Assembly: GCA_036365515.1 (NCBI GenBank)
Contig: CM070874.1
Coordinates: forward strand, 163,946,297-164,010,296
Reading direction: 5' to 3'
DNA from: Torymus aiolomorphi
Lineage: Eukaryota > Arthropoda > Insecta > Hymenoptera > Torymidae
DNA: 64,000 nt
The notes beneath the pieces are model-generated. The model was not told the DNA's origin, did no database searches, and worked only from the letters and a program-made list of their open reading frames with translations. Of the stretch, positions 35,430 to 56,598 are shown in pieces (position 1 is the stretch's first letter; every line of letters begins with the position of its first letter). The position numbers and the translations under genes were made by a program.

Positions 35430-36704
35430 TGTTGGTTGAATTATTCATTTATTTAATAAATAATTGGTGTGCCACTTTTGGCCCGTTCCGCGATTGTTGG
35501 AGATGCTTCTTAGATAATCTCTATAAATTTTCAGAACATTAGGAGTTGACCGGTGCCCGTGGCTGCCGATTAACTATGAAAATTCCGTATTTTGTTAGAT
35601 AAATTATTTATTTATTAAATAAATAATTGTTATGCCACTTGGAAATCGTACCAGAATTGTTGGGGATGCATCCTAGATAATCTATATGAATTTTCAGAAC
35701 TTTAGGAGTGGACCGATACCCGTGGCTGCTAATTAACTATGAAAATCCCGTATTTTGTTAGTTAATTTATTTATTAATTAAATAAATAATTGTTGTGCCC
35801 ATTTTGGCTCGTTCCGGGATTATTGGGGATGCATCTTAGATAATCTCTATGAATTTTCAGAACTTTAGGAGCTGACCGGTGCCCATGGCTGCTGATTAAC
35901 TATGAAAATCCCATATTTTGTTAGTTAAGTTATTTATTTATTAAATCAATTATTTTTGAGCCACTTGGAAATCGTACCAGCATTGTTGGGGACGCATCTT
36001 AGATAATCTCTATGAATATTCAGAGCTTTAGGATTTGTTCGGTGCCCGTGGCTGCTTAGTAACTATGAAAATCCCGGATTTTTTACTTCATTTATTTATT
36101 TATGAAATAAATAATTGTTGTGCCACTTTTGGCTCGTTCCGGGATTATTGGGGATGCATCTTAGATAATCTCTATGAATTTTCAGAACGTTAGGAGTTGA
36201 CCGGTGCCCGTGGCAGCTGATTAACTATGAACATCCCGTATTTTATTAGTTAAGTTATTTATTTATTAAATAAATAATTGTTGTACCACTTGGAAATCGT
36301 ACCAGAATTGTTGGGGATAATCTATATGAATTTTCAGAACTTTAGGAGTGGACCGGTGCCCGTGGCTACTGATTAACTATGAAAATCCCGTATTTTGTTA
36401 GTTAATTTAGTTATTTATTAAATAAATAATTGTTGTGCCAATTTTGACTCGTTCCAGTATTGTTGGGGATGCTTTTTAGATAATGTCTGTCAATTTTTAG
36501 AACGATAGGAGTTGATCGCTGCCGGTAGCTGCGAATTAATTATGAAAATCCCGTATTTTGTTAGTTAATTTATTTATAAAATAAATAATTGTTGTGCCAC
36601 TTGAAAATCGTATCAGAATTGTTAGGGATGCATCTTAGATAATCCCTATGAATTTTCAGAACTTTAGGAGCTGATGGGTGCCCGTGGATGCTTATTAACC
36701 CTTA
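35430..36704 (+). repeat. Higher-order satellite: alternating A and B monomers of about 163 bp
   Basis: Monomers with CCACTTTTGGCTCGTTCC (type A) and CCACTTGGAAATCGTACC (type B) alternate strictly. Markers lie at 35471(A), 35634(B), 35797(A), 35960(B), 36122(A), 36285(B), 36437(A) and 36596(B). Shared parts include GGGGATGCATCTTAGATAAT and GACCGGTGCCCGTGGCTGC. The repeating unit is therefore a dimer of about 326 bp. One B monomer (36285) has a deletion. The array resumes with an A monomer at 54813. Confidence 0.92.
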
Positions 36705-38153
36705 AACTGCCAAAATACCATAAATTGCTCCAACTTTTCAACTGCTGTGTTCTTTAGGAAAAAGTTGTTTAATATTTACAAAAATTCAAATCATATAGTA
36801 TTTTTTCACACTCTTTCCGAATCTGACCTCAGAATCGCTCCATCTGGCACCATTTTTTTTTTAAGTGGCGTCTAAAAGCAAAAAAATGGCACATTACAAA
36901 ATTTTTTTTTTCAAAAATTTGTAAATTTGAACAAGAAGTCATGAACGTAGATTGCTAATCCTCTGGATCTGGTGGCATATAATGTTTCTCTAACAGATAG
37001 GACCGATAGTGAGTTGAAATCCAATATGGCGGCCGAGACCAGGTAGAAAACAGCGATTTTCAAAAAATCAATCGATTTGGACCAAATTTGGTTTATAAAG
37101 ATTTTCGGTGTCGCTGATTACGAGTCTGAGCTCTGATTTGCAAAATTCAAGATGGCGGAACCAAGATGGCGGACGAAACTTTTGAAATTCAACGGATTTG
37201 GACCAAATTTAGTATATAATGGTTTTCGGGGTTGCTGATTACGAATCTGAGGTTAGATTTGCAAAATTCAAGATGGCGGATCCAATATGGCGTACGAAAT
37301 CCTGAAAATAAATCGTATTTGAACTGAAAAGTGTACATTTAGGTTTTTTCAGTCGCTGATTACGAAACTGGGATTAGATTTGATACCCTAATTTGATGAT
37401 ATAGAAACCGATATAATTATTTTTTTCGTATATTACAATAACAAAAATTAAAAAAAAAAATTTTAAATTAAAAAATATAAAAAGAATTAAAAAAACCAAA
37501 AAAGGAGAAAAAAGAAGAGATAAAAAAGACTCATTAGATCATCGACCTCCACGTTGGTATGAGTTGGGCAATGTGTCGATCAGATAGAGCAGACAGACGA
37601 TACGCCTTTCTGGAATTTTAAAATTTGATTCCTGATTAGTTATGATCGAATACAAAAACCTATGCATGCAATTTTCCATTCGAATTCCATAAAATTAAAA
37701 ATTTAATCCGCCATATTGGATTCGCCGTTCGGTAAATTTCATTTTCCGGTTCAAGTACGATCTATTTTCAGGATTTCGTCGGTCATATTGGATCCACCAT
37801 CTTGAATTTTGCAAAGCTGACCTCAAATTCATAATCAGCGACACCGAAAACCTTCATGTACAAAATTTGGTTCAAATGGGTTGAATTTTAAAAATTTCGT
37901 CCGCCATCTTGGTTCCGCCATTTTGAATTTTACAAATCTGACCTCAGATTTGTAATCAGCGACCCCGAAAACCTTATATAGAAAATATGGTCCAAAACGG
38001 TTGAATTTCAAAAATTTCGTCCGCCATCTTGGTTCCGCCTTCTTGAATTTTACAAATCTGAGCTTAGATTCGTAATCAGCGACCTCGAAAATCTTTAGAA
38101 ACCAAATTTGGTCGAAACCGATTGATTTTTCGAAAATCGCCATTTTTACCTGG
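36705..38153. mobile_element. Foldback-type element, proximal part (interrupted by the Gypsy element)
   Basis: The sequence 36722-37080 (from AAATTGCTCCAACTTTTCAACTGC) is inverted at 54455-54786, beyond the Gypsy insertion. Inside lie tandem units of about 121 bp. On the left, GCTGATTACG occurs at 37113, 37234 and 37355. In reverse complement on the right, AATCAGCGAC occurs at 37833, 37954 and 38074. Units carry AAGATGGCGGAACCAAGATGG-type strings. The middle (37390-37700) is A-rich. No transposase gene is present. The element interrupts the A/B satellite between a B and an A monomer. Its outer ends are uncertain by about 20 bp. Confidence 0.75.
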
Positions 38154-39217
38154 TGTTACGTCCGGGTTACGTGACAATACAAGAAGAGAGAAAATGAAAC
38201 TTCATTAGTCTAATGGCTAAAAGCGCGTAATGTGACTTTTCCCGATTCGGACACAACGTGCATTGCTCCAGGATGGGACGGCAGGTAGGAAAATGACACG
38301 GACACGCGGTACGCCTCGAGACAGTGTGTAGAATTTTACTGACTTACCTTAGAATTTCCAACAGCCCTTGTGTGAATCTGTACTCCCGCCGTGACGCTTA
38401 TAATGATAGTGGACGGTTGCCGCTCTGTGGAAGTTTTGGTGTGAAGAACGGAGATACGGAGAGTTTAGGATTCTTATAATCTCGAAATAATGAATACTTA
38501 ATATGGATTTAAACACAACTTAAACTTTATTAACTTGTCAGTACAAAACTAAGTAAAAATTACAGTGATGAGAGCTGATGTGAAGTCTACGCGAGTTGGC
38601 TTCTGAGTGAGCCATACCAGGAGTCTTCGTCCCCTTTTAAAGGTAAAAAGTTGTAAATCTTCCTGCCGTCGCCTTTTTGATTTGCCTAGGTGTTGCTGCC
38701 CCGCTTTTCTCGATGATCTTTGATGATTTCGGCGGCGCACCCTTTGAGAATATTCGGCGAGTTCGGATACATAAATTATTTTAGAATACGCTACGCATAT
38801 CGGGTAGGAGTGAAGGGAAAGGACAAGAAAACTGACTCTAGCTTGATTCAGTATTGTGCGCTGGAGTACTAATGCTTACTCCTCTAACTGGCGGCGAATC
38901 TCTGATGCTTGCGTGGATGTGCGTTTTGGTAATAAAAAACGCATAAAACTGCAGCAGGGGAGTGGCACACACTTAAGAGAGAATGAAAGGAAAACTAAAG
39001 GAAACCGCGTCTTCGTGCCTCCGTTCGAGGATCTTTTTGGTAACTATTCTTTCTGGATGGCGGCATCTTTTGAGCGTTTATGCGTATCCCCCTTTTTTTT
39101 ATCGTGTGGGAGAATATGAAGCAAGCGGCAATGCAGCAGGTTCGTTGGGAAAGATGAAGAAAGGAAGGAAAACAGCGCACACCGGCAACCACATCGGCAA
39201 CGTCGCACGACGCGACA
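38154..39217 (-). repeat. 3' LTR of the Gypsy-class element
   Basis: 1064 bp, downstream in the direction of transcription. It differs from its partner at about four positions that I can see (near 39086-39103 and at 39156, in and near a T-run and a purine tract). The short frames in it recur in the other LTR and are not genes. Confidence 0.95.
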
Positions 39218-39228
39218 CCTCCCCCCTT
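39218..39228 (-). other. Polypurine tract
   Basis: On the minus strand AAGGGGGGAGG directly precedes the 3' LTR. This is the expected plus-strand primer site for reverse transcription. Confidence 0.85.
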
Positions 39229-39359
39229 GAGGTAGTTCAGACCCGGGGGCTGAATTATCACATTGAATATTGGGATCGTCTCCAGTGTGTTGGCAAGATT
39301 TCCGCTTGCGAGTCCATCTGTTGTGGCCTACGTCGTTCATTAGGTACTCCGCAGGGTTC

Positions 39360-39609
39360 AGCGCACCTTGTAATTGATCTTGATGCCGGCTGAGTTGTTC
39401 CACATGAGTATCATTAACTGGTACCATTGGTCCCGAGGATGTTTGCGGAATCCTGGCATTCTGGGTCCATCGCTGAAGAAAGTCTCGTGCCCCTTCCGTA
39501 CTTGATAACCATAGCGTATCATTGCTTGACGTACACGTTCATCTAATGTTTGTAATATGTCTTGTTGTTGCTGCGAGGTTTGCTCCATGTTGAAATTCTC
39601 CGTGGCCAC
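39360..39609 (-). CDS. Possible accessory ORF D before the 3' LTR
   Basis: A frame with protein-like composition, likely starting at an ATG near 39588 (MEQTSQQQQDILQTLDERVR), continues RQAMIRYGYQVRKGHETFFS. It then seems to carry on in a second frame (39427-39218: NDTHVEQLSRHQDQLQGALN), so one indel may split it. No family is recognised. It could be a small accessory protein or the tail of an old gene. Confidence 0.3.
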
Positions 39610-40180
39610 TTCTCTTCTGACGTCTCTTTCTTTACTGACCCCTCGTCCTTTAATGGAAACTGAAAACGACCTGCATCTTTCCTAGATGTGGTTGGTGGCG
39701 TAGCGGGGATAAGAACGTCCAAAAAGATGTGGGTTTTCTTTTTTTTTTTTTTTTTTATCTGGTAGGGCGTGACACTGAAGGTAAAAGGAAGGTGGTAGTA
39801 AAAATGAGTGTCTAGGATAATGTGGGACAAAAAACAAAAATAGGTAGTGACTTAGATATGCGTGCGTAGTTGATACGTATTTTCTTAGTCTTGATTACTT
39901 ATTAATTATTAATGACCATGGATTACTTGGATTTTAATTTGCTTACTTCATTTGTAGATAACTATCAAGTATTCGCTGTTAATTTCTAGTGGTTAAACAC
40001 AAAATTATTTCACCATTACACCTGTGGTAAAACACAAATTGTTCGTTGCTACACAGAGTGGTTTAATACAAAATTAGTCGTTGTTATACATAGTGATTGA
40101 ATACAAAATTAGTCGTTGTTATAAAAAATTATTTGTCATTACCCGTAGTGGTTAAATACAATTTGTTCGTTATTATACAA

Positions 40181-40223
<43 letters not shown>

Positions 40224-40465
40224 TATCTTATTTTAAGTTCACAATACAATGTTGCATTTTTATCTGCAAGTTTTTTTAGGAATATATATATTTTACAACT
40301 ATTTATTTTAGAAATTATTTACCTAGATTACGACATTTGGTTGTGCTTACTTACTACGTTAATACCTACTGTTTCTATGTTTTGCTTAATTACAGAAATA
40401 AATGCTTGATTATATCATGCAAGAAAGTTACCTTGTTCTAAACCCCTTTTTTTTATCTTTTGTTG
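39610..40465. other. 3' non-coding region of the Gypsy-class element
   Basis: AT-rich. It holds a T-run of about 40 bases (about 40180-40220) and several diverged copies of a short unit like AGTGGTTWAATACAAAATTAKTCGTTRTTA between 39985 and 40170. No gene. Confidence 0.6.
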
Positions 40466-42499
40466 CTAAAGGATATTGGAACCTGATTGATTACCGTTTG
40501 TATTTTCTTGTTGAACTATATATTCTTCTAATTTATTATTTACGTATTCTGCGTCTAGCATATTAAATTCCCTTATCTCTACATTTCGAGACAAAACAGG
40601 ACTTGGAGGAGGAGCTGGTGGTTCAACTTTAACCGGTGGAAAACTCGGTGGCGAAAGGTTGTATCGAATGGTCTGATTCAATGGCCGCATCGGCACGTAT
40701 TTCGGCTCCTTCTCCTCCTTCTTTCCAATTTTCTCTCGTTTATGAAGTTCCCCTATCTCTACATTTTGAAACAAAACAGGAGTCGGATGAGGAGCTGGAG
40801 GTCCAACTTTAACCGGTGGAAAACTTGGTGTTGCATAAACATGCGGTGGGGGTGAAAAGTTGTATCGAATGGTCTGATTTAATGGTCCTATTGGCGCGTG
40901 TACCGGCTCCTTCTTCTCCTTTCCTGTTTTCTTTCGTTTACCCTGATACCACCTTATGGTAATTATAATTATGAGGATTACCGTAAATGTAATAATTATA
41001 ACACTTAAATATACGTCGACCTTGGTGTTATCAATACTAATTCTATGATAGGTAGATGGGGGTGCGGAATCCTTTTGTTCCCCTTCTATAATAACAAGTT
41101 GTAGAGGAGGTAAAATATAAACGTTGGATATCCTCATTAGATCAGAGGTACGGTACAATTTACTTTCAATTTCAACATAACATGGTTCAGGGATTATTAT
41201 TATTCCCGATCGTCCTAAGGTCATAAATGAAAAATGCTCACCGCAATGTACCCGTACAGTTGTTGGCCGTGGGACTGAAAAGAACCATTGTCTGGGGTGA
41301 GCAGTTCTCACCAGCACCGCTTCATTGACCTCCTCATGCTGTATTTTACAAGTCTGATATGTAGTATATTTTGGATCCACGAGCAATTCGCTTTCACATT
41401 GAAGTTTTTTAATAATTGGAGTTTTTCGTTCACACAAATAGTTAGACCTTAAACCTACGCATTCCCTTAAATCGTCCCGGTTAAGAAAGACAAACTCCTT
41501 TTTATCTTTAGAGACAGCGATATACTCGCTTCTAGGGCGAATGTAAGCCGCTTTCTTTAATTGCGTTAATGATAATTGAAATACTGGTACGGCTATCATT
41601 CTGTACAGAAGATATGGCTGTTTTTCGAGTATAGGCACTGTAATCTGTAATATTACTCTTCCTTGTATCACGATTATATCTGTTCGGGTTCCCTCCTCTA
41701 GTGTAGCAGCATTTATTTCTTCTATGGTAATTGGCGCTCTTCCTGGAGTTTGATGTTCAGCAATTTTAATCGCCTTTTCCATCACTCTAGTTGGTAAGGT
41801 AAATCGACGTGCTTCCATGAATTTGACTATTTCTTTCGCAAGATAAATGTTTTCTCCTACTAGTCGTATTGCCTCGTTCAGAATGTTTTCTATTTGTGAT
41901 TGTTTAATATCCGTTACTCCAAATTCCTGCTGTATAATTGTCAAATTACTTTTAAGTAATAACACGTCTGTTGAAAATTGTCGTCTAGCACGGTCTATTG
42001 CGTTGTCAGTTATTATTTTTCGTGTTTTATTTAGTACCATGCTTTCCTGATTCTTACGCCGCAATTGTTCGATATCCTGAAGAGTTTCGGCTGCTGTGTT
42101 GTTGCTTAGGTAGTCTTCGTTTTCTCCCTCCTGGAATGGCACTACCCATGGTGCATAAGAGTGTGCTAGATTCACATAGGCTATTTGTAACTGAGTCAGC
42201 TCTTCAATTTTCTCCTGGAAGACGTATTTTTGTTCAATCAGCACTGGATCCGACAATCTTGTATAAGTATCTGTTTCAGAGATATTTTTCATTGCTTTAA
42301 TAAAAAAATCTGTTGTAGAAAATACTACTCGGGCGTTTACTGATGTTATTATCTTCCATTCTTGCTTAATGAAATCCAAACCCCTGTCTTGATTAAAAAT
42401 AATGCCTGGATTGTTGCGCTCAAGGATACGCACTTCTGGTGATTTTATGGCTGCTATTAAAGCAAGGGTCATCATGAAGAACACTGTCTTTGTCATCAT
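40466..42499 (-). CDS. env: F-type envelope (errantivirus/baculovirus F-like)
   Basis: 677 codons from ATG 42499. A signal peptide (about residues 3-18) is followed by an ectodomain with a furin-like RARR at about residues 167-172. A long helical region comes next, then a Cys-rich C-terminal part (RDDLRECVG, NYLCERKTPIIKKLQCESELL, YQTCKI, VHCGEHF). This order is typical of the Baculo_F family used as Env by insect errantiviruses. A membrane segment lies at about 493-515 (VYLSVIIITFTVILIIIITI). The cytoplasmic tail (about 160 residues) is Pro-rich and has an internal duplication (PLNQTIRYN...PPVKV-PPAP). The frame is intact. Presumed role: fusion of particles with cells. Confidence 0.72.
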   Translation of the reverse strand: MMTKTVFFMMTLALIAAIKSPEVRILERNNPGIIFNQDRGLDFIKQEWKIITSVNARVVFSTTDFFIKAMKNISETDTYTRLSDPVLIEQKYVFQEKIEELTQLQIAYVNLAHSYAPWVVPFQEGENEDYLSNNTAAETLQDIEQLRRKNQESMVLNKTRKIITDNAIDRARRQFSTDVLLLKSNLTIIQQEFGVTDIKQSQIENILNEAIRLVGENIYLAKEIVKFMEARRFTLPTRVMEKAIKIAEHQTPGRAPITIEEINAATLEEGTRTDIIVIQGRVILQITVPILEKQPYLLYRMIAVPVFQLSLTQLKKAAYIRPRSEYIAVSKDKKEFVFLNRDDLRECVGLRSNYLCERKTPIIKKLQCESELLVDPKYTTYQTCKIQHEEVNEAVLVRTAHPRQWFFSVPRPTTVRVHCGEHFSFMTLGRSGIIIIPEPCYVEIESKLYRTSDLMRISNVYILPPLQLVIIEGEQKDSAPPSTYHRISIDNTKVDVYLSVIIITFTVILIIIITIRWYQGKRKKTGKEKKEPVHAPIGPLNQTIRYNFSPPPHVYATPSFPPVKVGPPAPHPTPVLFQNVEIGELHKREKIGKKEEKEPKYVPMRPLNQTIRYNLSPPSFPPVKVEPPAPPPSPVLSRNVEIREFNMLDAEYVNNKLEEYIVQQENTNGNQSGSNIL

Positions 42500-42539
42500 T
42501 CTTAAAAAGAAAAAATAAAAAATGATTGCATATTATGTT

Positions 42540-42866
42540 TTACTCAGTACTCTCTCGAGGGCGTTTATGTGTCGTGGAAAGGTCGCAAGGCGGGGGTTCC
42601 ATTGACTCTGAGGCATTTTCTAAAGCTCCTATTATTTCATTTAATATATCCTCGTCAGGGATATTGAGTTCTTCTAACGGGCTTATAACTGCATGGTTTC
42701 GAGTACTCTGCCTATCCGTAATAATCTCTCTCTCCTGCATTCTATATTCTCCGCGTTTCCTCTTATTAGATATGGATGCTTCTCGCCCCGGTGGTAGTTC
42801 ATATAAATTTTCGCCAAGCTGGTGACGTACAAAATTAAATAAGGTAGTGTTGGCAGTATCCACCAT
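42540..42866 (-). CDS. Accessory ORF C: small acidic protein with a basic patch
   Basis: 108 codons from ATG 42866. It has a KRKRGEYRMQER basic patch that could act as a nuclear signal, then an acidic helix-forming part (LEELNIPDEDILNEIIGALE) and a polar tail. No family is recognised. A second frame over the same bases (42871-42683, hydrophobic N-terminus) is an alternative reading, but I favour this one because it spans the interval between ORF B and the F-type envelope, stopping 40 bp before the latter. Confidence 0.45.
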   Translation of the reverse strand: MVDTANTTLFNFVRHQLGENLYELPPGREASISNKRKRGEYRMQEREIITDRQSTRNHAVISPLEELNIPDEDILNEIIGALENASESMEPPPCDLSTTHKRPRESTE

Positions 42867-42874
42867 ATCATCGC

Positions 42875-43216
42875 TTAAAATGCAACCACCGCGTTTCCTT
42901 CTGGAATCTTTAAACCCTTGATTTTTTCTATCGCGCAGCCTTGTATCTCTACATCCAATCTCCCTTTATTTACAAATGTTTGTTTTATGTTTTGTTTCAG
43001 AAAAGTTATTGGGATGCGACATAGTGAACATATTTTTACGTTGATTTTTATGCATGTGGCAATGGTAGCCCGTACCACTACTTGATTGTACAAGATGCGA
43101 GTGTATGGTCCAATTCTGAACTTGTAGCAATAGAGACATATTCTTGCTCCCACATGTTCATAATATACTAATTCGCGGTTCCTTAGTGGTATCTCATTGT
43201 AGTTGGCTCCTTCCAT
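42875..43216 (-). CDS. Accessory ORF B: small protein with two CxxC pairs
   Basis: 113 codons from ATG 43216. CLYC (about residues 28-31) and CSLC (about 62-65) lie some 30 residues apart and could hold one zinc ion. The rest is mixed, with a C-terminal GRLDVEIQGCAIEKIKGLKI segment. I do not recognise a family. Its position among accessory ORFs on the same strand, with only 9 bp to ORF C, suggests that it belongs to the element's 3' transcript. Confidence 0.5.
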   Translation of the reverse strand: MEGANYNEIPLRNRELVYYEHVGARICLYCYKFRIGPYTRILYNQVVVRATIATCIKINVKICSLCRIPITFLKQNIKQTFVNKGRLDVEIQGCAIEKIKGLKIPEGNAVVAF

Positions 43217-43295
43217 TCTTTTTAGAGGTGATGGGTTAAAAGTAACTAAAGAAGAAAGAAAAAATAAAAAAATAGCGGATAAATGATAATGTTAA

Positions 43296-43673
43296 TCAAA
43301 GATGTATGGAATATCTATGTTTAATTTTTCGTAAGTCTTCTAAACTGGAATGAATGCGTTTCGCGTGTCCCATCGCTTGATGTAGAGAAACGTAAATGTG
43401 CGGTTTACATATATAACGCTTAATCTCCGGACGCAGTCCGCGTAAAAATGTTTCGATAGCCATTTTTTCTCTAACTAACGAGGAATCGCATACCTCCCTA
43501 AACTCAACCTGTGATATTTTTCCTAAATTGTTGTATTCATGCAACATTTTTTCCATTCTACCGCAAAATTCATAAAAATCCTCATCACTTCTTTGAGCTG
43601 CCCATGCAAGTTTCATTCTTAAAGTCATTAGATTAGAAAACATGTTATGTTTTTCGGAGGGAGTTAGAGGCAT
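43296..43673 (-). CDS. Accessory ORF A: small second Gag (capsid C-terminal-like)
   Basis: 125 codons from ATG 43673. It contains SNLMTLRMKLAWAAQRSDED, EDFYEFCGRMEKMLHEYN, IETFLRGLRPEIKRYI and YVSLHQAMGHAKRIHSSL. The pattern (a Gln/Arg-rich helix, a D-FY-F-R segment, FLRGL, then an A...A-RIH helix) parallels the capsid part of the main Gag (FFIRGLHWVIKARM followed by EKATAEAIEIERD), but the sequence is quite different. There is no zinc knuckle and no protease after it. It lies between the two envelope genes. It may derive from another Gypsy element and could modify particle assembly; that role is inference. Confidence 0.6.
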   Translation of the reverse strand: MPLTPSEKHNMFSNLMTLRMKLAWAAQRSDEDFYEFCGRMEKMLHEYNNLGKISQVEFREVCDSSLVREKMAIETFLRGLRPEIKRYICKPHIYVSLHQAMGHAKRIHSSLEDLRKIKHRYSIHL

Positions 43674-44073
43674 TTTCCTTTATGAAAATAAAAACAAAAG
43701 TAATAAAAATGAAAAAATCTTGCTTACAAGACGGCTCAATCTACTTATTACTACGGTAATTACCCTCTTCTTTTTTTTATTAAACTATTATTACAAAAGA
43801 ATTAAACAAAATTACATTTAATAGATTTACATAAGCGCTACCATTAATCTAATTTCTTATTATTTATTTACTTTAATCAATTATTCATCGTCATTTGTAC
43901 GATTATTCCGCGGTGGTAAGGATGGGATATCTGGGTCAGTTGCTAAAGTTGGATAAATTCTTGGTATTGTTGGAGTAGTACAGTTTACTTGTACTCCTCC
44001 CCTCTCGCCGGAACCTGCACCACCGCGTGCTGGCTTTGAAATTTCGAAAAATCAGAAAATGACGGAGGCGGGG
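43674..44073. other. Spacer between the glycoprotein and accessory ORFs
   Basis: AT-rich, no supported frame. Bases 43880-44070 have some coding-like composition but no open frame. Confidence 0.35.
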
Positions 44074-44370
44074 CTAGTGGTGTTGTTGGTGGAGCGCTCG
44101 TGGTTTTTTTACAGAGCTATATTCTTCTTGAGCCCGCTTCTTTTCTTCCTTTCGAGTGGGCTTATGCCGTGCAGTGTGCAATAGCAATTGCGTTACCGAA
44201 TTCCAAATGGCTCCTATAATATGAATTGACCAGCCATATAAACTATATAATGCATATCCATGCAGAATTGTATCAATTAAAAATTTTATTACACGACCTA
44301 TCATAATTATTCCTATTATTCCTGCACTTATAGAACCGAAAGATAGAAATTGACCCCATATTTTTTCCAT
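44074..44370 (-). CDS. Membrane-anchor part of the class III glycoprotein, in the -1 frame
   Basis: 98 codons overlapping the end of the ectodomain frame by 43 bp. It opens WGQFLSFGSISAGIIGIIMI, then IKFLIDTILHGYALYSLYGW and a further hydrophobic stretch (about residues 45-65), and ends in a basic tail (RHKPTRKEEKKRAQEE). This is what the C-terminus of the glycoprotein should look like, so the two frames are probably one gene. The switch is near a T6 run at 44361-44366. It could be a mutation, a sequence error or, less likely, programmed frameshifting. Confidence 0.6.
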   Translation of the reverse strand: MEKIWGQFLSFGSISAGIIGIIMIGRVIKFLIDTILHGYALYSLYGWSIHIIGAIWNSVTQLLLHTARHKPTRKEEKKRAQEEYSSVKKPRALHQQHH

Positions 44371-45977
44371 GTATCGTTCGCAAGTGCAGTTAATGCTTCC
44401 TCATCGAACAAGCGTGCTATAGACATACCATTTTTGTCCGTTGATCTGCCTGACATACCCATGGCTAAAGAATTCAACATTGCACCTCGCTCGACTGGAA
44501 ACATTAAATGATGTCTTAACGCTTGTATGTCTGACTGTGTGTAAATACCGCTTTTTGCTAATTCGAGAGGTTCAGTATAATTCCAATTGTTTTTTGTGGC
44601 TGGTTTGAGGATAGCGGGTTTAATTCCTTTTGTGGTACCATGAGGCAGTACCGTGTACCAATCTTCGCCTAGTAGAAACATAGGTGGGATCAATGGGTTG
44701 CAAGTAGTTTCAGTACCGTATTGCTTTAAAATATGTGTTTTAGGAGATAAAAAATAATTTTTTTCGTCTTTTACTACAGGCAACTCTTGATAGCACCTTG
44801 GTGTTTCTCGTCTTTGAACATCTATTTGCACACATTTCATTAAATGAACTACTTCCCCCGCTACCAAACCCATATAACCACTTTTTTTCATTATTTGATA
44901 GGCGAACAGATCTGGTTCGGTACTTGCGATACTTAATGCGTTCGCTATAACTCTTTTTTCTAATTCGCATTTTTGCATAATTAAATCTCGATATAAGCGC
45001 TTTAATTCCCCTTTTATGTGTTTTTCGACATAAACAAATTTAGAATTAACATATGCAAAGATATCCAAGTTATGTACTGTAGGATGTTTAATTTTTCCAA
45101 ATGCTTCTATAGCAGGAGCCTCAAAGAAAAATAATTTAGGATGTTCTGTGCGTATTAAGTCATATGAGCAAACTGAAATAGTACCGACTGCCGTAAATGC
45201 AAAAGTTATTTCGCTTGACTCCATTACATAAACTGGATGTCTCTCATTTCCTTCCTCTATTATTTTATTTACATACCCCGCGTATAATTCTGAATACTTA
45301 TGTTCTTCGCATGATGACACCGGTAATGGTTCCCAGAAAGCGTACCCTGCTTCAATATCTATACATATGTCTTCATTAAATTTGCAACGAGTACCTGATT
45401 TTAGTATAACCTCATTAGCATTTAAATTCACAGGAGTATAATAATCTTGTAAGGTTATTGTGACATAACCCATGACTACCGCATCATCGAATACTCCATA
45501 CGGGTCGGAGTATGTACCTGGATTACTACAATCTCCCGCCTGATCTATTTTCCCCACAAAAGTCATTGGATAAACGATAGTCCCATTATGTTTTAAATTT
45601 GAGATAAGCTCGTCGCGAACTCTATGGCTGCGATGCACATGCATTCGCCGACATTCTTCATTAGTAATTTCGTCTAGAAACTTAACTTCCCCCCTATTCT
45701 TGTCTTTTCGATGCGAGAATGCCCCACAATATGTAACTGAACGCTTAATTTCTACCTTACATAGTCTTACATGAGTGCTTCCGAAATCGTTCAATTGTAA
45801 TAATCTAACATAAACCTTGGTAGTATTGACCACGGGCTCCGCTATGTCACATTCCCCGACGTTTATTAATGAAAATGTGGTGAGGTTCGAGACTTGCTGA
45901 GAGCAGTCGTAACCAATTATGGTATTAACTGTTTTTGATGTTAGCAGCAATGCTAGTACACAAAAAACGATTTTCAT
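44328..45977 (-). CDS. Class III glycoprotein-like gene (resembles chuvirus G), ectodomain
   Basis: Starts at ATG 45977, with a hydrophobic signal peptide (about residues 3-18, IVFCVLALLLTS) followed by IIGYDCSQQVSNLTTFSL. The ectodomain of about 520 residues has many Cys, several N-glycosylation sites (NLT, NTT, NGT), CGAFSHRKD, EAGYAFWEPLPVSSCEEHKY and a GEVVHLMKC segment near the end. This cysteine layout and N-terminus recall the glycoprotein of chuviruses (negative-strand RNA viruses), a type known to have been captured by insect retroelements. It is unlike retroviral or F-type Env. The frame ends just before the expected membrane region, which continues in the -1 frame at 44370. Its presumed role is cell binding and fusion. 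The family call is from pattern memory only. Confidence 0.55.
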   Translation of the reverse strand: MKIVFCVLALLLTSKTVNTIIGYDCSQQVSNLTTFSLINVGECDIAEPVVNTTKVYVRLLQLNDFGSTHVRLCKVEIKRSVTYCGAFSHRKDKNRGEVKFLDEITNEECRRMHVHRSHRVRDELISNLKHNGTIVYPMTFVGKIDQAGDCSNPGTYSDPYGVFDDAVVMGYVTITLQDYYTPVNLNANEVILKSGTRCKFNEDICIDIEAGYAFWEPLPVSSCEEHKYSELYAGYVNKIIEEGNERHPVYVMESSEITFAFTAVGTISVCSYDLIRTEHPKLFFFEAPAIEAFGKIKHPTVHNLDIFAYVNSKFVYVEKHIKGELKRLYRDLIMQKCELEKRVIANALSIASTEPDLFAYQIMKKSGYMGLVAGEVVHLMKCVQIDVQRRETPRCYQELPVVKDEKNYFLSPKTHILKQYGTETTCNPLIPPMFLLGEDWYTVLPHGTTKGIKPAILKPATKNNWNYTEPLELAKSGIYTQSDIQALRHHLMFPVERGAMLNSLAMGMSGRSTDKNGMSIARLFDEEALTALANDTWKKYGVNFYLSVL

Positions 45978-46019
45978 CTGCAAACATTACAAAGTATTAA
46001 TCTTTTTGATTTCAAGAAA

Positions 46020-46387
46020 AGAAAATGGCAAAAATGCTCTATTTATCATAAAGAAAAAGAGAACATCATAGAAACTGCACTAATGTTAAAACAGTAACAT
46101 ATATCAAAATTAACTTAAAAAAAAAATAATAGTTGGTTTAAAATAATAAAATTAATAGTATTACTAGTTTTCTCTTTTTCGCATTTTTGCTATTTATTAG
46201 TTATAATATATTTTGCGTTATATTTATAGTTATAATAATATTTTTATAGTTATAATAATATATTTTGCGTAGTAAATATTAACCTACTACAACGTGCCAT
46301 TATCAAAGAAATCGTGCTTATTATCCTTATTTATATATAATGTAACTTAGAAAGCAAGCGTAGGATTAGGTATGTTAAAGCAACGAT
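46020..46387. other. AT-rich spacer between integrase and the glycoprotein gene
   Basis: Contains short imperfect duplications (TAGTTATAATAATAT twice near 46225-46265, and TATTTTGCGT twice). No frame is supported. A splice acceptor for a subgenomic envelope mRNA would be expected here; none can be fixed by eye. Confidence 0.4.
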
Positions 46388-48202
46388 TTAAGCTTGTTTT
46401 TGCTCTACATGTGATTTGCGCAGGCGATTAATGTGCACTATTTTACTTTTAGTACTACTTAATTGTATCCTCACATTTCCATTTACAGAAACGTCTAAAA
46501 CTAAATACGGCCCCGTATATTGACTATCAAATTTGTGTGGTTTCGGTCCCTTTTGCAACCACACGTAGTCCCCAATTTTTAATGTTAAATGATTTACTTT
46601 TCTGTCATAGTATTTTTTTGATCTTATTTTGGCTCGCAATAAATTTTCTCTTGCTATATTTTGCAAGTAGTTTATTCGTGTTATGAGAGTTTCCATATAG
46701 CCCTTATAAGTAGGCGCTAGATCCTCACTTTCTATCGGCTCACTACCTGGCGTTCGAGCTAAACGACCAAATACTAATTCGAAAGGTGAGTGCCATGTTG
46801 CCTCACTTATGCCTGTGTTAAAATTAAATGTTGCTAACTCTATATAGTCATCCCAATCCGACTTATTTTCTTGCACAAAAAATTTTAAAAACTCGATAAG
46901 ACTTGAATGTGATCTCTCCAAGGACCCATTTGTTTGTGGATGAAAAGCCGTAGTGTTGACTTGTTTGATTCTAAATCTTTTTGCCACTCGTTTCATTAAT
47001 TTGCTCATAAAATTAGTGCCCTGATCCGTTAAAATAACTCGCGGTGCCCCGAACACACATATGACCCTCTTAATTAGACTGTTTGAAACGTCTATTGCTG
47101 TAGTTTGTGCTAATGGTTCCGCTATTGCAAATTTCGTAAATAAATCTTGGAAGGTTAATATATACTCATTGCCTTTATTAGATCTAGGCAATGGCCCTAC
47201 AATATCCATACTAATGCGATCCATCGCATGTGCCCCAGAGTTAGTAATAATCATTGGCACACGTGTTTTTACCCTGACTAATTTTTTTAATTGACACTGC
47301 ACACATTTTCGAATAAAATCCTGTACATCTTCTTTTAAATTTTCCCAGTTGTAAGCTTGTTTAATTCTTTTGTATGTCTTAGTAACTCCCCTATGTCCGC
47401 CTATTACCGAGCTGTGTGCTTCTTGCATAATGGGGTCCCTTTCCTCGAGGGGAGGATACCTGACTATCCCTAAACACACTACCAGTTTGATGGTACTCTT
47501 AGAAAATGGATCTCTTAATTTTCTTATTACTTGTTCCCATTCTAAATTTTCTATTATTTCCGTTTTTGCTATACTTATCGACCGCGCGTCGATTTTGTTT
47601 AAGATTGGTAGTAAATTAGTACAAAGTAAACTTAAATTATTGTTTATTATGCTCAAGCCTACTCTGTTTTGCGTACGTAGTGGCATGACTATGTGTATTT
47701 TAGAATTTGTTTTTATAACTTCTGGTATTCCTATTGTTAAATTTTTAAAACGTGGGAGCTTGTTCTGTAATTTTAATTGCATGGCACCGTCGTCGCATGG
47801 TTCACCTTCGGATGTAACAAAATACAAATAATTATCTTTTCTCATAAATAATTTTTCACGGCAGAAAATAGTTGAATGAGTCGGGTTTAAATTTTCCAAC
47901 ATAATTTCATCTTCCATCTCCCCGTTTTCTTTCGATAGTTTGTCTCTCTCCTCTTCCTCCGAGAGAAGGTTACTCTTATTCATGTTGGTCTGTGGGTCAC
48001 CCCTACTTCGTGTTTCGTTCAGTATGCTATTGTCTTCCTCGCCTTCGGTTCCCGCTGATGCGGTAATATGTTGTGCATCTCTACCGCTGACCTTTTCCTT
48101 TTCTATTACGCATTTATTTTTATCGTTTTTCGGCAGTTTTTTCTTTTCTGCTTCAATGTTTTCTTTGTTCCGCTCACGGGCTATGCGTCCCCTCGTGACC
48201 AT
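46388..48202 (-). CDS. pol: Pol: integrase, with a charged N-terminal extension
   Basis: 604 codons from ATG 48202. Residues 1-115 are Lys/Glu-rich and probably disordered. A zinc-binding HHCC domain follows (HSSVIGGH...CVQCQ). The catalytic core shows Asp in MDIVGPLPRS, Asp in LTDQGTNF and Glu in NGSLERSH, the DDE triad that joins viral DNA to the target. The C-terminal part (KIGDYVWLQKG, YTGPYLVLD) is SH3-like, as in Gypsy integrases. All key residues are present. The frame is -1 relative to RNase H, with an overlap of 22 bp. This could be natural or an indel near CCCC at 48189-48192. Confidence 0.88.
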   Translation of the reverse strand: MVTRGRIARERNKENIEAEKKKLPKNDKNKCVIEKEKVSGRDAQHITASAGTEGEEDNSILNETRSRGDPQTNMNKSNLLSEEEERDKLSKENGEMEDEIMLENLNPTHSTIFCREKLFMRKDNYLYFVTSEGEPCDDGAMQLKLQNKLPRFKNLTIGIPEVIKTNSKIHIVMPLRTQNRVGLSIINNNLSLLCTNLLPILNKIDARSISIAKTEIIENLEWEQVIRKLRDPFSKSTIKLVVCLGIVRYPPLEERDPIMQEAHSSVIGGHRGVTKTYKRIKQAYNWENLKEDVQDFIRKCVQCQLKKLVRVKTRVPMIITNSGAHAMDRISMDIVGPLPRSNKGNEYILTFQDLFTKFAIAEPLAQTTAIDVSNSLIKRVICVFGAPRVILTDQGTNFMSKLMKRVAKRFRIKQVNTTAFHPQTNGSLERSHSSLIEFLKFFVQENKSDWDDYIELATFNFNTGISEATWHSPFELVFGRLARTPGSEPIESEDLAPTYKGYMETLITRINYLQNIARENLLRAKIRSKKYYDRKVNHLTLKIGDYVWLQKGPKPHKFDSQYTGPYLVLDVSVNGNVRIQLSSTKSKIVHINRLRKSHVEQKQA

Positions 48203-48777
48203 ATTATGAACGCACTCCTCCCCGTTTGTTCGGTGACCGCCTCTTTTTCTTGCTCTTGCTCTTTTAGTTTTTCAGCCAGGGCAGCACTTCTTGTGACAAT
48301 TAACACTCGATCCACCGGATTTCGAGAGAGAGCATCCGCTACATTCATTCTCCCTGGTCTGTATATCACCTCAAAATCATATTCGGCCAGTGTTAAACGC
48401 CACCTCATAACACGTGAATTTGGATCTTTATGTGTCTGCATCCATACTAGAGGGCGATGGTCAGTAATTACATAGAATTTTCTCCCAAAAAGATAAGGTC
48501 TAAAATGTTTTATAGAAAATACCAACGCTAGTCCCTCTTTATTGAATGTATCCCATCTTCCCTCTACCTCTGATAACACACGTGAGACATATGCAACTGG
48601 TTGATCATAGCCTATTTTACCCTGAGATAAAATTCCTCCTATCGCATAACCCGATGCGTCTGTAGTTAGGTTAAAAGGTAGTTCGAAATTTGGAAAAGCT
48701 AATATAGGTTCTTTACATAATTTATCACGTAGAATTTCAAAAGCATACTGCGTATCATCGGTCCATTTAAATTCCAT
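48181..48777 (-). CDS. pol: Pol: RNase H domain
   Basis: 198 codons beginning in the RT connection region. RNase H motifs are visible: NLTTDASGYAIGG (Asp), FNKEGLALVFSIKHFR (Glu) and YVITDHRPLVWM (Asp), then GRMNVADALSR, which ends the domain in Gypsy Pol. It degrades RNA in the RNA-DNA hybrid. Its frame is the same as the RT frame, with a broken stretch of about 200 bp between (48778-48972) that carries two T-runs. Its end overlaps the integrase frame by 22 bp at a C4 run. Confidence 0.85.
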   Translation of the reverse strand: MEFKWTDDTQYAFEILRDKLCKEPILAFPNFELPFNLTTDASGYAIGGILSQGKIGYDQPVAYVSRVLSEVEGRWDTFNKEGLALVFSIKHFRPYLFGRKFYVITDHRPLVWMQTHKDPNSRVMRWRLTLAEYDFEVIYRPGRMNVADALSRNPVDRVLIVTRSAALAEKLKEQEQEKEAVTEQTGRSAFIIWSRGDA

Positions 48778-48972
48778 TTCTTTTTTTAATAAGTTTGTGA
48801 GAGGTTTAGCTATTTTTGAAAATTGATGAATGAAGCGTCTGTAATAGCCTGCTAAACCTAAAAATTGTTTAATATTTTTTTGCGTTTTTTGGCACTGGAT
48901 AATTCCGAACAGCTTCCAGCTTCCTTGGATCTGGCCTTACGCCCTCTGCGCTTATTAAATGCCCTAAATAAG

Positions 48973-51051
48973 TTACTTTTTTTTGAAAAATTCACATTTT
49001 TCCGGTTGTACTTTTAATACCGCCTTTCGTAATCTGATGAATAATCTTTCTAATCTTTGTATGTGTTCAGCAAACGTGCGTGAGTAAACAATTATATCGT
49101 CAATAAAACAAAATAATTCCTTATTAACTAAACCCGCGAGCGCTATAGATAGTGCTCTTGAAAATGTCGCCGGCATAGTTCTTAGCCCAAAACTACCTCG
49201 ATTAAAGTGATAGAGCCCACCATTTGTCACAAAAGCTGTTTTGTGGCGGTCGCGCTCATCGATTTCTAACTGATGGTAGCCTGATGCGAGATCGAACACA
49301 GAGAAGTATTTTGATCCTCCCAACTGGTCAAGTATTTCGTTAATATTTGGAAGAGGAAATTGATCATCGAGTGTTTCGTTTAATTTTCGATAATCAATTA
49401 CCATTCTGTACTTTCTATTGCCATGTATATCTTCTTTCTTTGGTACTAAAAAACAAGGACTAGAGTATGAAGATGTAGAAGGCTCAATTATGCCATTTGC
49501 CAATAACTCTGCAACTTGTCTTTCTATCTCGTTTTTATGCACTGGTGGCAATCGAAACTGTTTTGAAGTAACTGGCACTTCATCTACGGTTGGGATAGTT
49601 AATTTTAATATAGGTGTAGCCGTTAATTTTTCACCCGGAATGTGAAAAATATCGCTAAATCTTTCTATTAATTTTGTTATCTCTGTACGCTCTTCTGACA
49701 GCAAATGTTCAAAACGCAATAAAGATTTAATCTGACCGACGCGTTCGTTTGACAAAACTCTTTCTACCCGACAAATTACATGTTTCTCAATTTTTGAATT
49801 TGTAGATTTCCCTTTAAGAAGTTTTTTCCACTTTTCTATTACTTCTAAACAATCATCAATCAGATATGTGCACGATGAGTCGTCGAATGATCTGAGCTCA
49901 AAATGCGTTTTTAAATCGCGAAACATTTTGTAGTGCTCGTTAAAAAACTCATTCTTATTTATTATCTTCAACAATATTTCAATTAATATTTCTATATCTT
50001 CGGCATTATCATATAAAATACTGTAATTTGCTTGGCTTTGATTGAGTAACTTTTGTAACATTATCAATCTTTCAAAAATGAACTCCTCATTAATTCCTTG
50101 ATTGTTACTTGTATTAAAATTTGCTTTGTCTTTCTTTTTCTTAGAATTATCTCCAGAATTTAATTTAGCATTTATATCCAAACTTGATTCCTCTTTCCCT
50201 TTTGAGTTAGAATTTTTATTTTGTTCTGAATTTCTTTTCGAATTTTCGTTTGCACTCGAGTTTGTTTTAATCCAAGACGAAAAATTTTCTTTAGAGTTTG
50301 ATTTCAAATTTTCTTTTGAATTTGAAAAATTTTTATTAGAATTTGGATTTGAGCTAGGATTTTTATTAGAGTTCGCACTCGAGTTAGGATTTTGATAAAA
50401 ATTCGCAATTGAGTTAGAATTTTGACAAGAATTTGCATTTAAGTTAAAATTTTGATAAGAATTTGTAATTGGGTTAGCGTTTTTACAAGAATTTGTACTT
50501 GTATTGAGATTTTGACAAGAGTTTGTACTTGAGTTAGGATTTTGACAAGAATTTTTATTCAAGTTAGAATTTTGATAAGAATTTATGATTGAGTTAGAAT
50601 TTTGACAAGAATTTGTTCTTGCATTAGGATTTTGACAAGAGTTTGTAACTGAGTTAGAATTTTGATTTACTTTGTGATTTTCTTTTGAATTTAATAAATT
50701 AACGTCTTCATTAGAATTTGATATAAAAGTAGAATTTGATTTAGAATTTTCATTTGAATTTGATCTAAAAGTAGAATTTGTTTTCGAATTTTCGTTTGAA
50801 TTTAACAAACTAAATTTCACATCTCTCAAGTGGAGATTTTCGTCAGCGTTTGAGCTAACTCCAATAATTATTTTTAAATTTTTATAAGAGTCCAATTTTA
50901 ATGTGACATTTTGATTTGCAAAATTTATTTCTTTTATATTATGTAAACTTAAAATCTCTTCTGTTTCAAGTTTAGCTTGCTCCCGGTTGCTGGTGACCGT
51001 TCCTATTTCGATAAAGTTACTTTTGACTTGTGTTGGAGTTTGGGGTTCCAC
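48973..51051 (-). CDS. pol: Pol: Asn/Ser/Lys-rich insert followed by reverse transcriptase
   Basis: 692 codons, opened by a non-ATG codon because it continues an upstream frame. Residues of about 85-300 are low complexity, with a repeated motif of about 12 residues such as TNSCQNPNSS, and no known fold. Reverse transcriptase follows (about 440-690): YRMVIDYRKLN, YFSVFDLASGYHQLEI with the first catalytic Asp, and CFIDDIIVYS with the catalytic Asp pair. It copies the RNA genome into DNA. The frame stops after EKCEFFKKK beside a T8 run (48977-48984), and the connector to RNase H is split between frames. The Asn-rich insert between protease and RT is unusual. Confidence 0.85.
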   Translation of the reverse strand: MEPQTPTQVKSNFIEIGTVTSNREQAKLETEEILSLHNIKEINFANQNVTLKLDSYKNLKIIIGVSSNADENLHLRDVKFSLLNSNENSKTNSTFRSNSNENSKSNSTFISNSNEDVNLLNSKENHKVNQNSNSVTNSCQNPNARTNSCQNSNSIINSYQNSNLNKNSCQNPNSSTNSCQNLNTSTNSCKNANPITNSYQNFNLNANSCQNSNSIANFYQNPNSSANSNKNPSSNPNSNKNFSNSKENLKSNSKENFSSWIKTNSSANENSKRNSEQNKNSNSKGKEESSLDINAKLNSGDNSKKKKDKANFNTSNNQGINEEFIFERLIMLQKLLNQSQANYSILYDNAEDIEILIEILLKIINKNEFFNEHYKMFRDLKTHFELRSFDDSSCTYLIDDCLEVIEKWKKLLKGKSTNSKIEKHVICRVERVLSNERVGQIKSLLRFEHLLSEERTEITKLIERFSDIFHIPGEKLTATPILKLTIPTVDEVPVTSKQFRLPPVHKNEIERQVAELLANGIIEPSTSSYSSPCFLVPKKEDIHGNRKYRMVIDYRKLNETLDDQFPLPNINEILDQLGGSKYFSVFDLASGYHQLEIDERDRHKTAFVTNGGLYHFNRGSFGLRTMPATFSRALSIALAGLVNKELFCFIDDIIVYSRTFAEHIQRLERLFIRLRKAVLKVQPEKCEFFKKK

Positions 51052-51082
51052 GGGAAAATTTATGAGTCGAAAAACTTCCTCT

Positions 51083-51564
51083 TTATTCTGACTTAGAATT
51101 TTTTTTTATAGCTTCAGCCGTATCTTCAGTTTTCTTTTCACTCCTATTTTTATGTTTTATAATTTCCGAGTATACTTCCTCCGCTGTATCATTCTGGTCT
51201 ACTTTGTGTGCGTAATTAATGCGTTTACTAGAATTTACTAAAGTTTTTTCATTTTTTTCATAGAACGGAATAGACAAATCACCAATGATCAGTTGTTTAG
51301 TTCCATAGTCGATTTTTGTTCCTAACTGAGAGAAAAAATCACTCCCTAGTAATCCATCTTCGTTTATTGGAAAATCGTTATTCACAATATGAAATTCAAT
51401 GGCGAATTTAAAAAATATAGTTTTATTTTACCTAAAGTAAAAATGCTACTGTCTGTTATGCCTTTCAATTCCAAAATTTCATTTTTATTAATTGCTGTTT
51501 TTTCAGCTAAATTGTTCTTTTTTAACAGATTTGGTCCCGCGCCTGAATCTAATATTAAAAACAT
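51083..51564 (-). CDS. Retroviral-type aspartic protease, frame broken
   Basis: The first piece (51564-51382) has LILDSGAGPNLLKK, with the Asp-Ser-Gly-Ala active site of retropepsins. The second (51385-51083) has GLLGSDFF, the second conserved segment of Gypsy proteases. The frame changes between them near an A6 run (51410-51415). Another break lies near a T9 run (51099-51107) before the next domain. The enzyme matures Gag and Pol; each active unit is a dimer. It is in the -1 frame relative to gag. Confidence 0.78.
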
Positions 51565-51620
51565 TTCTCTGTTATTACTCGGATTACTAAAGGAAATTAT
51601 TGGTGATTTGCTATTTTCGC

Positions 51621-53324
51621 TTAACCGAACGTGTCTTTGGATGATTGCAGATTGTTCTGCTTTTCGTCTGGGCGCTTTACTAAGTCCGTCTCCCGTCTCG
51701 CGCCTTGTTGACGGGGACTCTGACTGTTTCCCGCCTGTACTTGTGTATTTCTCTGACTATTGTTGTATGCGAGTTTTCGACAGTTTATTATTTCATGCCC
51801 CTCTTTTTTACAATATCGACAAAATAATTTCGTTAGTTCATTATTTGAAAATGTGGCGTTCTGTCTTTGTACATATTGGTCTCCCGTATTTCGTGGAGCC
51901 TGCGCGGGTCTATCCTGTGTCCATTGTGTCGGCGCGCCCGATCTCCGCGGGTCCACCCAGGTAGGTAATGGTTGCCTATTTTGGAAGTTTGGTGGTTTCC
52001 CTGTGTATTGCCAGCAGTTTAAAGCAATATGACCTCTTCTGTTACATATTTGACACGTTTCTATAGTTTTACTATCCACTAAATATAATTTATCTTCTCT
52101 TGAAGAATTAGTTTTCTTTTCTGTAATTATTTTAATAGTGTCATTTAATTCTTCTGGCTCATAACACACGAAGTCCCTTTCGATTTCTATTGCTTCCGCA
52201 GTGGCCTTTTCTAAAGTTCTTGCTTCTCCCATGCGTGCTTTAATTACCCAATGTAGACCTCGAATAAAAAATTTTACCAAGTCTTTTTCCAATGCTTTTT
52301 GAGAATCTCGCGTAGATCTCTTCTCACGATGTTCTGACTCAGTAATTTCGTGTCCTATCGCACGCACTCTATTTGAAAAAACTACTACGCTTTCATCGCG
52401 TTTTTGTTTTACACTAGCTAATTGCCCGTGTAGTTGGTGATACGTTTTAGCCGAACCGAAAATATTGTCGAAAAAATTCGCTATATCATTTATTGATTCA
52501 AATATCTTTTTTGCTGCACTTTTTAGTGCCTCGCCGTATAAACGTAATTTTATTAATTTTGCTAAATCTACCTCAAATTGTTCTGGGATAATGCTACATG
52601 CTTCCCGACAGCCTTGTATAAATTGTGTTAAAGGAATATTTACTCCATTATATTTCGGAATTAATTCTAACGCGTCCTTAATTGACAACGGCCTAACTTG
52701 CCCTAGGGTACTGTTTCCGGAAAAATTATTCATCCTTTGTGACAAATTATACTTTGGATTTATCAAATATGTATCCGAATTAAATGGTGTGCTGTATTTA
52801 AGCTGATCGTTAGGTAAAAAAAAATTTTCGCCGTTTCCTGAACTTATTTTATTTTTTTCCTCGTCTGATGATTTTTGTAAAGATGTTTTATTATTTTTTA
52901 ATATGGAATAAAATTTTGTGTTGTCGGCCGTAATTTCTGGATTATCGAAACTTATGTTGTTGATTATTAATTCCGATTTTGCTGTTACAGCCCCCGTGAT
53001 ATATTCGATAATATATTTTGGATCGATTCTTTGATTTATTAAATCTCCGAGCGCTTCAATTAAATATTTATCTTAACAACATTCTATTATATCGTCTTTA
53101 CTAACATGATCTGTTAAAATTTCAATAAGTGATTCTATTCTTTTATCCTTTGTTTGCACTTCCGCGTCTAGAAAACCGCTTTCGTTACGGCTTTTAAAGA
53201 AATCTAAAATATTTGTTAGCGTTTGTCCCTCTGGTAAGTTAGGTTTTAGTTTTAACGCCTGTTTTAGCAGAATAGCCTCTGCTTCTTCATTACGCCTATC
53301 GTCACCTTCCTTGGCTACCGACAT
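51621..53324 (-). CDS. gag: Gag polyprotein, with one in-frame stop
   Basis: The gene starts at ATG 53324 and stays in one frame to TAA at 51621, except for a single TAA at 53075-53073. The part before the stop is about 83 codons; 102 open codons and then 381 residues follow in the same frame. The middle (about 52640-52150) is helical and capsid-like. Two CCHC zinc knuckles are visible: CQICNRRGHIALNC and CRYCKKEGHEIINC. These bind RNA during particle assembly. The C-terminal tail is Gln/Asn-rich. Protease follows in the -1 frame, as in many Gypsy elements. The internal stop is either a mutation or a site of readthrough. Confidence 0.82.
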
Positions 53325-53367
53325 ATCATTCAAGCCCGCAAAACAAAAACTATCTGCCTAATCCTTT

Positions 53368-53384
53368 CTAAGGAGGGGCCCCCA
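53368..53384 (-). other. Primer-binding site
   Basis: On the minus strand, two bases after the 5' LTR, the sequence reads TGGGGGCCCCTCCTTAG. TGG at this place is complementary to the CCA end of a tRNA. The first bases resemble those used with tRNA-Pro, but the match is not long enough to name the tRNA. Confidence 0.65.
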
Positions 53385-53386
53385 AT

Positions 53387-54450
53387 TGTTACGTCCGGGT
53401 TACGTGACAATACAAGAAGAGAGAAAATGAAACTTCATTAGTCTAATGGCTAAAAGCGCGTAATGTGACTTTTCCCGATTCGGACACAACGTGCATTGCT
53501 CCAGGATGGGACGGCAGGTAGGAAAATGACACGGACACGCGGTACGCCTCGAGACAGTGTGTAGAATTTTACTGACTTACCTTAGAATTTCCAACAGCCC
53601 TTGTGTGAATCTGTACTCCCGCCGTGACGCTTATAATGATAGTGGACGGTTGCCGCTCTGTGGAAGTTTTGGTGTGAAGAACGGAGATACGGAGAGTTTA
53701 GGATTCTTATAATCTCGAAATAATGAATACTTAATATGGATTTAAACACAACTTAAACTTTATTAACTTGTCAGTACAAAACTAAGTAAAAATTACAGTG
53801 ATGAGAGCTGATGTGAAGTCTACGCGAGTTGGCTTCTGAGTGAGCCATACCAGGAGTCTTCGTCCCCTTTTAAAGGTAAAAAGTTGTAAATCTTCCTGCC
53901 GTCGCCTTTTTGATTTGCCTAGGTGTTGCTGCCCCGCTTTTCTCGATGATCTTTGATGATTTCGGCGGCGCACCCTTTGAGAATATTCGGCGAGTTCGGA
54001 TACATAAATTATTTTAGAATACGCTACGCATATCGGGTAGGAGTGAAGGGAAAGGACAAGAAAACTGACTCTAGCTTGATTCAGTATTGTGCGCTGGAGT
54101 ACTAATGCTTACTCCTCTAACTGGCGGCGAATCTCTGATGCTTGCGTGGATGTGCGTTTTGGTAATAAAAAACGCATAAAACTGCAGCAGGGGAGTGGCA
54201 CACACTTAAGAGAGAATGAAAGGAAAACTAAAGGAAACCGCGTCTTCGTGCCTCCGTTCGAGGATCTTTTTGGTAACTATTCTTTCTGGATGGCGGCATC
54301 TTTTGAGCGTTTATGCGTAACCCCTTTTTTTTTATTGTGTGGGAGAATATGAAGCAAGCGGCAATGCAGCAGGTTCGTTGGGAAAGATGAAGAGAGGAAG
54401 GAAAACAGCGCACACCGGCAACCACATCGGCAACGTCGCACGACGCGACA
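53387..54450 (-). repeat. 5' LTR of the Gypsy-class element
   Basis: 1064 bp, equal in length to the 3' LTR. As the upstream LTR it should carry the promoter for the minus-strand transcript. I cannot place the start site. Confidence 0.95.
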
Positions 54451-54454
54451 CTGG

Positions 54455-54786
54455 TCTCGGACGCTATATTAAATCCGCCATATTGGATTTCAACTCACTA
54501 TCGGTGCTGTCTTTTACAGAAACACAATATGCCACCAGATCCAGAGAATTAGCAATCTAGATTGATGACTTCTTGTTCAAATTTACGAATATTTGAAAAA
54601 AAAAAATTTGTAATTAGCCATTTTTTTGCTTTTAGCCACCATTCAAAAAAAATGGCGCCAGATAGGGCGATTCTGAGGTCAGATTCGGAAAGAGCGTGAA
54701 AAAATACTACAGGGTATGAAGTTTTGTAAATATTGAACAAATTTTTCCTAAAGAACACTGCAGTTGAAAAGTTGGAGGTAATTTAT
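54455..54786. mobile_element. Foldback-type element, distal part
   Basis: Inverted counterpart of 36722-37060, including ATTGCTAATTCTCTGGATCTGG in reverse complement and the GATAGTGAGTTGAAATCC block. It abuts the Gypsy target duplication CTGG (54451-54454). The satellite resumes directly after it. Confidence 0.8.
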
Positions 54787-56563: not shown

Positions 56564-56598
56564 TTGACAAATATGGAAATCACATTTGTTTGCTATAG

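Follow-up and report, generated by a model that had tools for sequence, protein, structure and literature searches.

Errantiviruses, or insect endogenous retroviruses with env-F (Metaviridae), have long terminal repeats (LTRs), a Gypsy-type pol and a downstream F-type envelope, which in the consulted parts of the source is described as the sole envelope (PMC12992720). In mosquitoes the BEL/Pao element Anakin has taken up a chuvirus glycoprotein that multiplied with it, and no F-type envelope is mentioned in the portion of the account consulted (PMC7642597). Gypsy elements with type III fusion glycoproteins are mentioned elsewhere, citing Chary and Hayashi 2025 (PMC13172572), while for Hymenoptera the excerpted text reports Gypsy fragments beside chuvirus-type glycoproteins with no clear evidence of capture by Gypsy (PMC10084718). 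The element described here lies in a 64,000-nucleotide stretch of the genome of the torymid wasp Torymus aiolomorphi (contig CM070874.1, positions 163946297-164010296), hereafter the window, whose positions provide all coordinates given below; the genome searched was the 1.08-Gb, 21-contig assembly. Like the errantiviruses the element has LTRs, a Gypsy-type pol and a downstream F-type envelope (F), but a class III glycoprotein (G) and two further genes, X and Y, precede F. Like Anakin it carries a chuvirus-type G within an LTR retroelement, but its pol is Gypsy-type by Pfam, not BEL/Pao, and it has F as well; the pairing of Gypsy class with a class III envelope is the one already mentioned for Gypsy elements. 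What sets it apart is a second envelope class in an envelope-bearing Gypsy element, itself of a known kind; the order is fixed throughout the family, there are two further genes, and all four genes show signs of selection. No account of a single element carrying the two envelope classes came up in the literature searched, though Chary and Hayashi 2025 could contain one.

Both envelopes lie within one LTR-bounded unit, and their order is constant in every locus checked. A Gypsy-class LTR element spans 38154-54450 on the minus strand, with its 5' LTR at 53387-54450 and its 3' LTR at 38154-39217, both of 1064 bp with TG...CA ends. Aligned by BLASTN, the two LTRs agree at 1061 of 1065 positions, with 4 mismatches and without gaps. 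The alignment ends on the opening base of the right-hand target-site duplication, so that the identity inside the LTRs is 1060/1064. The duplication, CTGG, was located by eye at 38150-38153 and 54451-54454, as was a G-rich purine run (minus strand) adjoining the 3' LTR, and no second LTR pair was found inside the element at a length of at least 60 bases. The order of transcription is a gag-like open reading frame (ORF), reverse transcriptase (RT), RNase H, integrase, G, X, Y and F, after which about 1.2 kb without a large ORF leads to the 3' LTR. A single LTR pair with a CTGG duplication, and both envelope genes on the strand of gag and pol, had been claimed in a sequence-only reading of this DNA; these claims are borne out, G and F sharing the minus strand with RT, RNase H and integrase. 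The insertion is young and is a member of a multi-copy Gypsy-class endogenous retrovirus.

G is one gene that in the window copy runs over two overlapping frames and is split near its C-terminal end. The N-terminal 551 amino acids (44328-45983, minus strand) match PF24664 (Monjiviricetes_fusion) with E 3.5e-184 over profile positions 2-544 of 653; the C-terminal part, in another frame (44074-44370, minus strand), continues the match over positions 537-623 with E 8.2e-28 and has a hydrophobic span by hydropathy. The sequence-only reading placed the gene at 45977-44074, where it does lie, but that span crosses the frame break. The predicted fold of G resembles herpesvirus gB and the glycoproteins of chu-like viruses, and thereby supports a chuvirus-type class III glycoprotein with the gB/VSV-G fold, the class proposed at the outset. 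In a tree of 30 rows the closest relative of G is a protein of the Nasonia genome, its sister with support of 100/100, and no exogenous virus stands closer. That kinship would by itself point to a chalcid-like wasp as the host. Scans of viral contigs with G, with F and with the 30-row alignment of G found no relative.

The second envelope, F, is a 677-residue protein of the Baculo_F type, encoded at 40466-42499 on the minus strand, as had been read from the sequence; its match to PF12259 (E 4.3e-20) covers profile positions 302-469 of 609 only. It also matches the PDB entry 9w4d (E 1.6e-5), and has one basic cleavage-like site and one membrane span. Its score against Baculo_F, 72 bits, is below that of all 72 scored Baculo_F places in the genome (117-203 bits). 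By BLASTP it matches all three of the other F proteins read in the genome (E 3.7e-17, 1.1e-13 and 6e-10), of which phmmer lists one (E 3.4e-22); protein searches with F, which depend on shared five-residue words, returned nothing at E 0.001 or better. When G and F are compared directly by BLASTP, the best piece is 15 residues long with E 0.008 for the single comparison. Pfam, the fold of G, the PDB match of F and this comparison together support the view that one element holds two unrelated envelope families, as originally suggested. A tandem duplication at 40554-40921 (repeat families D8 and D9) falls in the proline-rich cytoplasmic tail of F.

The constancy of the arrangement was established by DNA searches of the genome in which the 40 best places were scored for each gene, out of 232 first-look candidates for G and 105 for F. 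Fifteen loci are on both lists, with F on the same strand 1566-1605 bases downstream of the G query. Twenty of the 25 F places lacking a listed G (L009-L028, which are by this choice good F and poor G matches) all align with the window from F, across G, and on into integrase, with the order unchanged and the 3' LTR present; L015 is without X and part of Y, L016 has lost a short stretch, and L021 contains 551 N. Comparison by eye of the remaining five F places found a G of the family at the right distance in four, and in the fifth (C1:125648151) the X-Y stretch, with G in none of the lists. From the opposite side, the ten most divergent of the 25 G places lacking a listed F all proved to have F, 93-98% identical, and in the other 15, which lay outside the F check, the X-Y stretch follows in 11, again by eye. 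G is followed by F in the same order in 49/49 loci checked for both, which speaks against a nested insertion and against a one-off; the search for other copies had been proposed in the sequence-only reading, with a nested insertion of either gene as the outcome to be feared. One might still imagine that X-Y-F is a dead second element inserted into this one, or an assembly join: X looks like part of gag, which would be expected if that second element were truncated. The uniform order of the envelopes, the lack of an internal LTR pair and the constraint on X, Y and F in their own frames (see below) make this highly improbable, and it is distinct from an old recombination that brought in X, Y and F, which forms part of the explanation preferred here. 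As a separate matter, L021, L023, L027 and L028 have LTR stretches that in places match those of the window at only 85-96%, against 98-99% for the internal part, a pattern suggestive of LTRs exchanged between subfamilies.

Gene X (43296-43673, minus strand) encodes 125 amino acids of gag-like character: BLASTP relates it to the element's own gag-like ORF with E 1e-5, a likeness that none of 2000 shuffles equalled. There is no PDB match for X below E 0.026, and its fold predicted from the lone sequence is poor (mean pLDDT 45.3). Gene Y (42540-43216, minus strand) is present in the window copy as two ORFs, at 42875-43216 and 42540-42866. It has no match in Pfam or NCBIfam, and none in PDB below E 0.11.

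All four genes, G, X, Y and F, bear the mark of past purifying selection between subfamilies. The ratio of nonsynonymous to synonymous change (dN/dS) was taken between the window frames and other copies at codons away from gaps, in rows that share ancestry and are not independent. For G it is 0.13-0.23 over 8 rows and for X 0.06-0.24 over 7; the first part of Y has 0.08-0.21 (7 rows) and the second 0.21-0.40 (10 rows). Seven divergent rows put F at 0.37-0.45; F is the least constrained of the four, and G is more constrained than F. A frame test, in which a shortfall of protein-changing differences was sought in each of three frames with two comparison copies per gene, singles out the coding frame in each case. 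The respective p values are 1.4e-9 and 1.8e-7 for G, 6.6e-4 and 5.3e-5 for X, 3.2e-5 and 4.7e-5 for the first part of Y, 0.028 and 0.017 for its second part, and 1.4e-5 and 1.0e-5 for F (1.1e-6 and 2.6e-6 for its first 500 residues). None of the 24 tests of the other frames of these genes reaches p 0.05, all having p of at least 0.063.

Both envelope families are abundant in the genome, with 1956 first-look candidates for the G family (PF24664), of which the best 68 were scored at 722-809 bits, and 1542 for Baculo_F (PF12259), of which the best 72 were scored; many of the scored places have long open frames. Between the best 68 G and the best 72 F places there are no pairs within 15 kb. At four of four sampled other G places, F, X and Y give nothing in the next 2.4 kb but hits at chance level (E 0.66-0.88), and no frame there exceeds 96 codons from stop to stop. 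Because the best G and F places never coincide, and the four sampled places lack F, X and Y, the envelope that came first was probably G, with F, perhaps together with X and Y, acquired afterwards; the resemblance of X to the gag-like ORF fits a piece of another Gypsy element that arrived with F. The earlier proposal was that the element had captured the glycoprotein of a negative-strand RNA virus; F is more likely to have been gained by a G-bearing element than G to have been captured from a virus, because G-family genes are common in the genome and G has its closest relative in the Nasonia genome. With that Nasonia G as query, 101 places were scored of 1534 candidates; by eye, identity in the main match is 59-66% in 63 and 45-49% in 38, a split that sets the G family of the element apart.

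The best explanation overall, and one that we consider reasonably probable, is a G-X-Y-F endogenous retrovirus whose G-bearing ancestor gained F, with G as the fusion protein and F as a second surface protein. Recombination between this ancestor, with G as its envelope, and an element carrying F would have supplied F and perhaps also X and Y. By analogy with described systems G would perform membrane fusion, and F may act in attachment, release or choice of cell; X and Y may work in assembly or against rival elements. Several observations weigh against this explanation. G is broken in the window, and a full open G is found in 0/20 of L009-L028, in which F (677-688 amino acids) is open in 14/20, X (125 amino acids) in 17/20 and Y (a single frame of 225-227 amino acids) in 9/20. 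Only one of the ten divergent copies (L029-L038) has an open F of nearly full length. Three nearer copies of F, with fewer changes and some stops, have dN/dS of 0.71, 0.98 and 0.40, and the comparison with other G places covers the downstream side of four of them.

The contrast between an open F and a broken G, together with breaks in G that are common to many copies, can also be read to mean that F is the working envelope and G a relic, the element having switched to F while G is being lost. We think this unlikely. L009-L028 had been chosen because F matched well there and G poorly, and among the loci selected for G (L002-L008) a 699-residue open G is found in 2/7; the dN/dS of G is, moreover, lower than that of F. 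The breaks in G occupy few sites, which recur in mixed combinations over 34 copies, and most of these sites are homopolymers of six or seven bases, at which either slippage or an error in the assembly is likely (the two are not separable here), so that G may be less broken than it looks. The sampling bias and the single-base runs thus weaken the case for a G-dead, F-driven lineage.

A different alternative grants both proteins full fusogenic function, in different tissues or stages, as a two-key system for cell range. Constraint on both genes is consistent with it, as is the basic cleavage-like site of F, which is kept in the window and in 15/15 other open copies read. Against it, F is less constrained than G and has no published fusion-peptide motif, though three control F proteins from the same genome are likewise without it, which makes the motif test uninformative on the loss of a fusion peptide in F. 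On this evidence the two-key system seems rather unlikely. A G that fuses beside an F of auxiliary function, as in the explanation preferred here, has a parallel in group I baculoviruses (nucleopolyhedroviruses), in which, according to the sections consulted, GP64 and an F homologue coexist (PMC6085415); GP64 is listed as class III (PMC2288602). As in the element, one virus has a class III fusogen and a protein of the F family; the likeness is one of analogy, not of kinship, and these are large DNA viruses with unrelated replication, unlike the element. GP64 belongs to another class III lineage than G. A more ambitious reading, which we offer tentatively and would not expect to hold in full, is of a dual-envelope retrovirus lineage whose particles would carry both a class III fusogen and an F-derived surface protein, which kept a gag-derived X and a new gene Y, and whose envelopes are mid-exchange; it would be the retroviral counterpart of the group I baculoviruses.

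The remainder of the element is that of a Gypsy retroelement. The gag-like ORF (51621-52766, minus strand, 381 amino acids) is so named from its position, a zinc-knuckle match (E 0.21) being under the Pfam cut-off; no gag or protease family scores above cut-off in the ORFs of the element, and the neighbouring ORF 51083-51385 is without a protease match. The pol region is broken in the window copy and spread over several frames, all on the minus strand: an ORF with RT and a repetitive N-terminal part (48973-51051; PF00078, E 4.9e-25), one with RNase H (48181-48777; PF17917, E 2.9e-35, and PF17919, E 9.1e-31) and one with integrase (46388-48202; PF17921, E 1.2e-18, and PF00665, E 1.2e-11). These families, in this order, form a set typical of Gypsy. 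At 50299-50693 a 30-base tandem repeat, in nine overlapping register copies, encodes an Asn/Ser-rich stretch in the N-terminal part of the RT-bearing ORF. Related repeats, recurring about every 152-163 bases, flank the element on both sides (36000-36750 and 54776-54934), and it may thus have inserted into a repeat array or next to one. Elsewhere in the window are the remains of a Copia-type element (55317-58045, minus strand; matches to RVT_2, SH3_retrovirus, gag_pre-integrs and rve) and a mariner-type transposase with a 357-residue open frame (29661-30734; Transposase_1, E 1.6e-24, and HTH_48).

Retroviruses reach new hosts and tissues through an exchange of envelopes, and to our knowledge a genome holding two unrelated envelopes at once is rarely seen. 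In this wasp dozens of copies have kept a two-envelope arrangement, selection is measurable on every one of its genes, and a Gypsy-class element is seen to have two conserved extra genes, X and Y. The copies suggest that selection kept both envelopes, as if the virus had been caught adding or swapping entry machinery. The element makes it testable whether a protein of the F family beside a class III fusogen turns auxiliary by a common route in baculoviruses and in retroelements.

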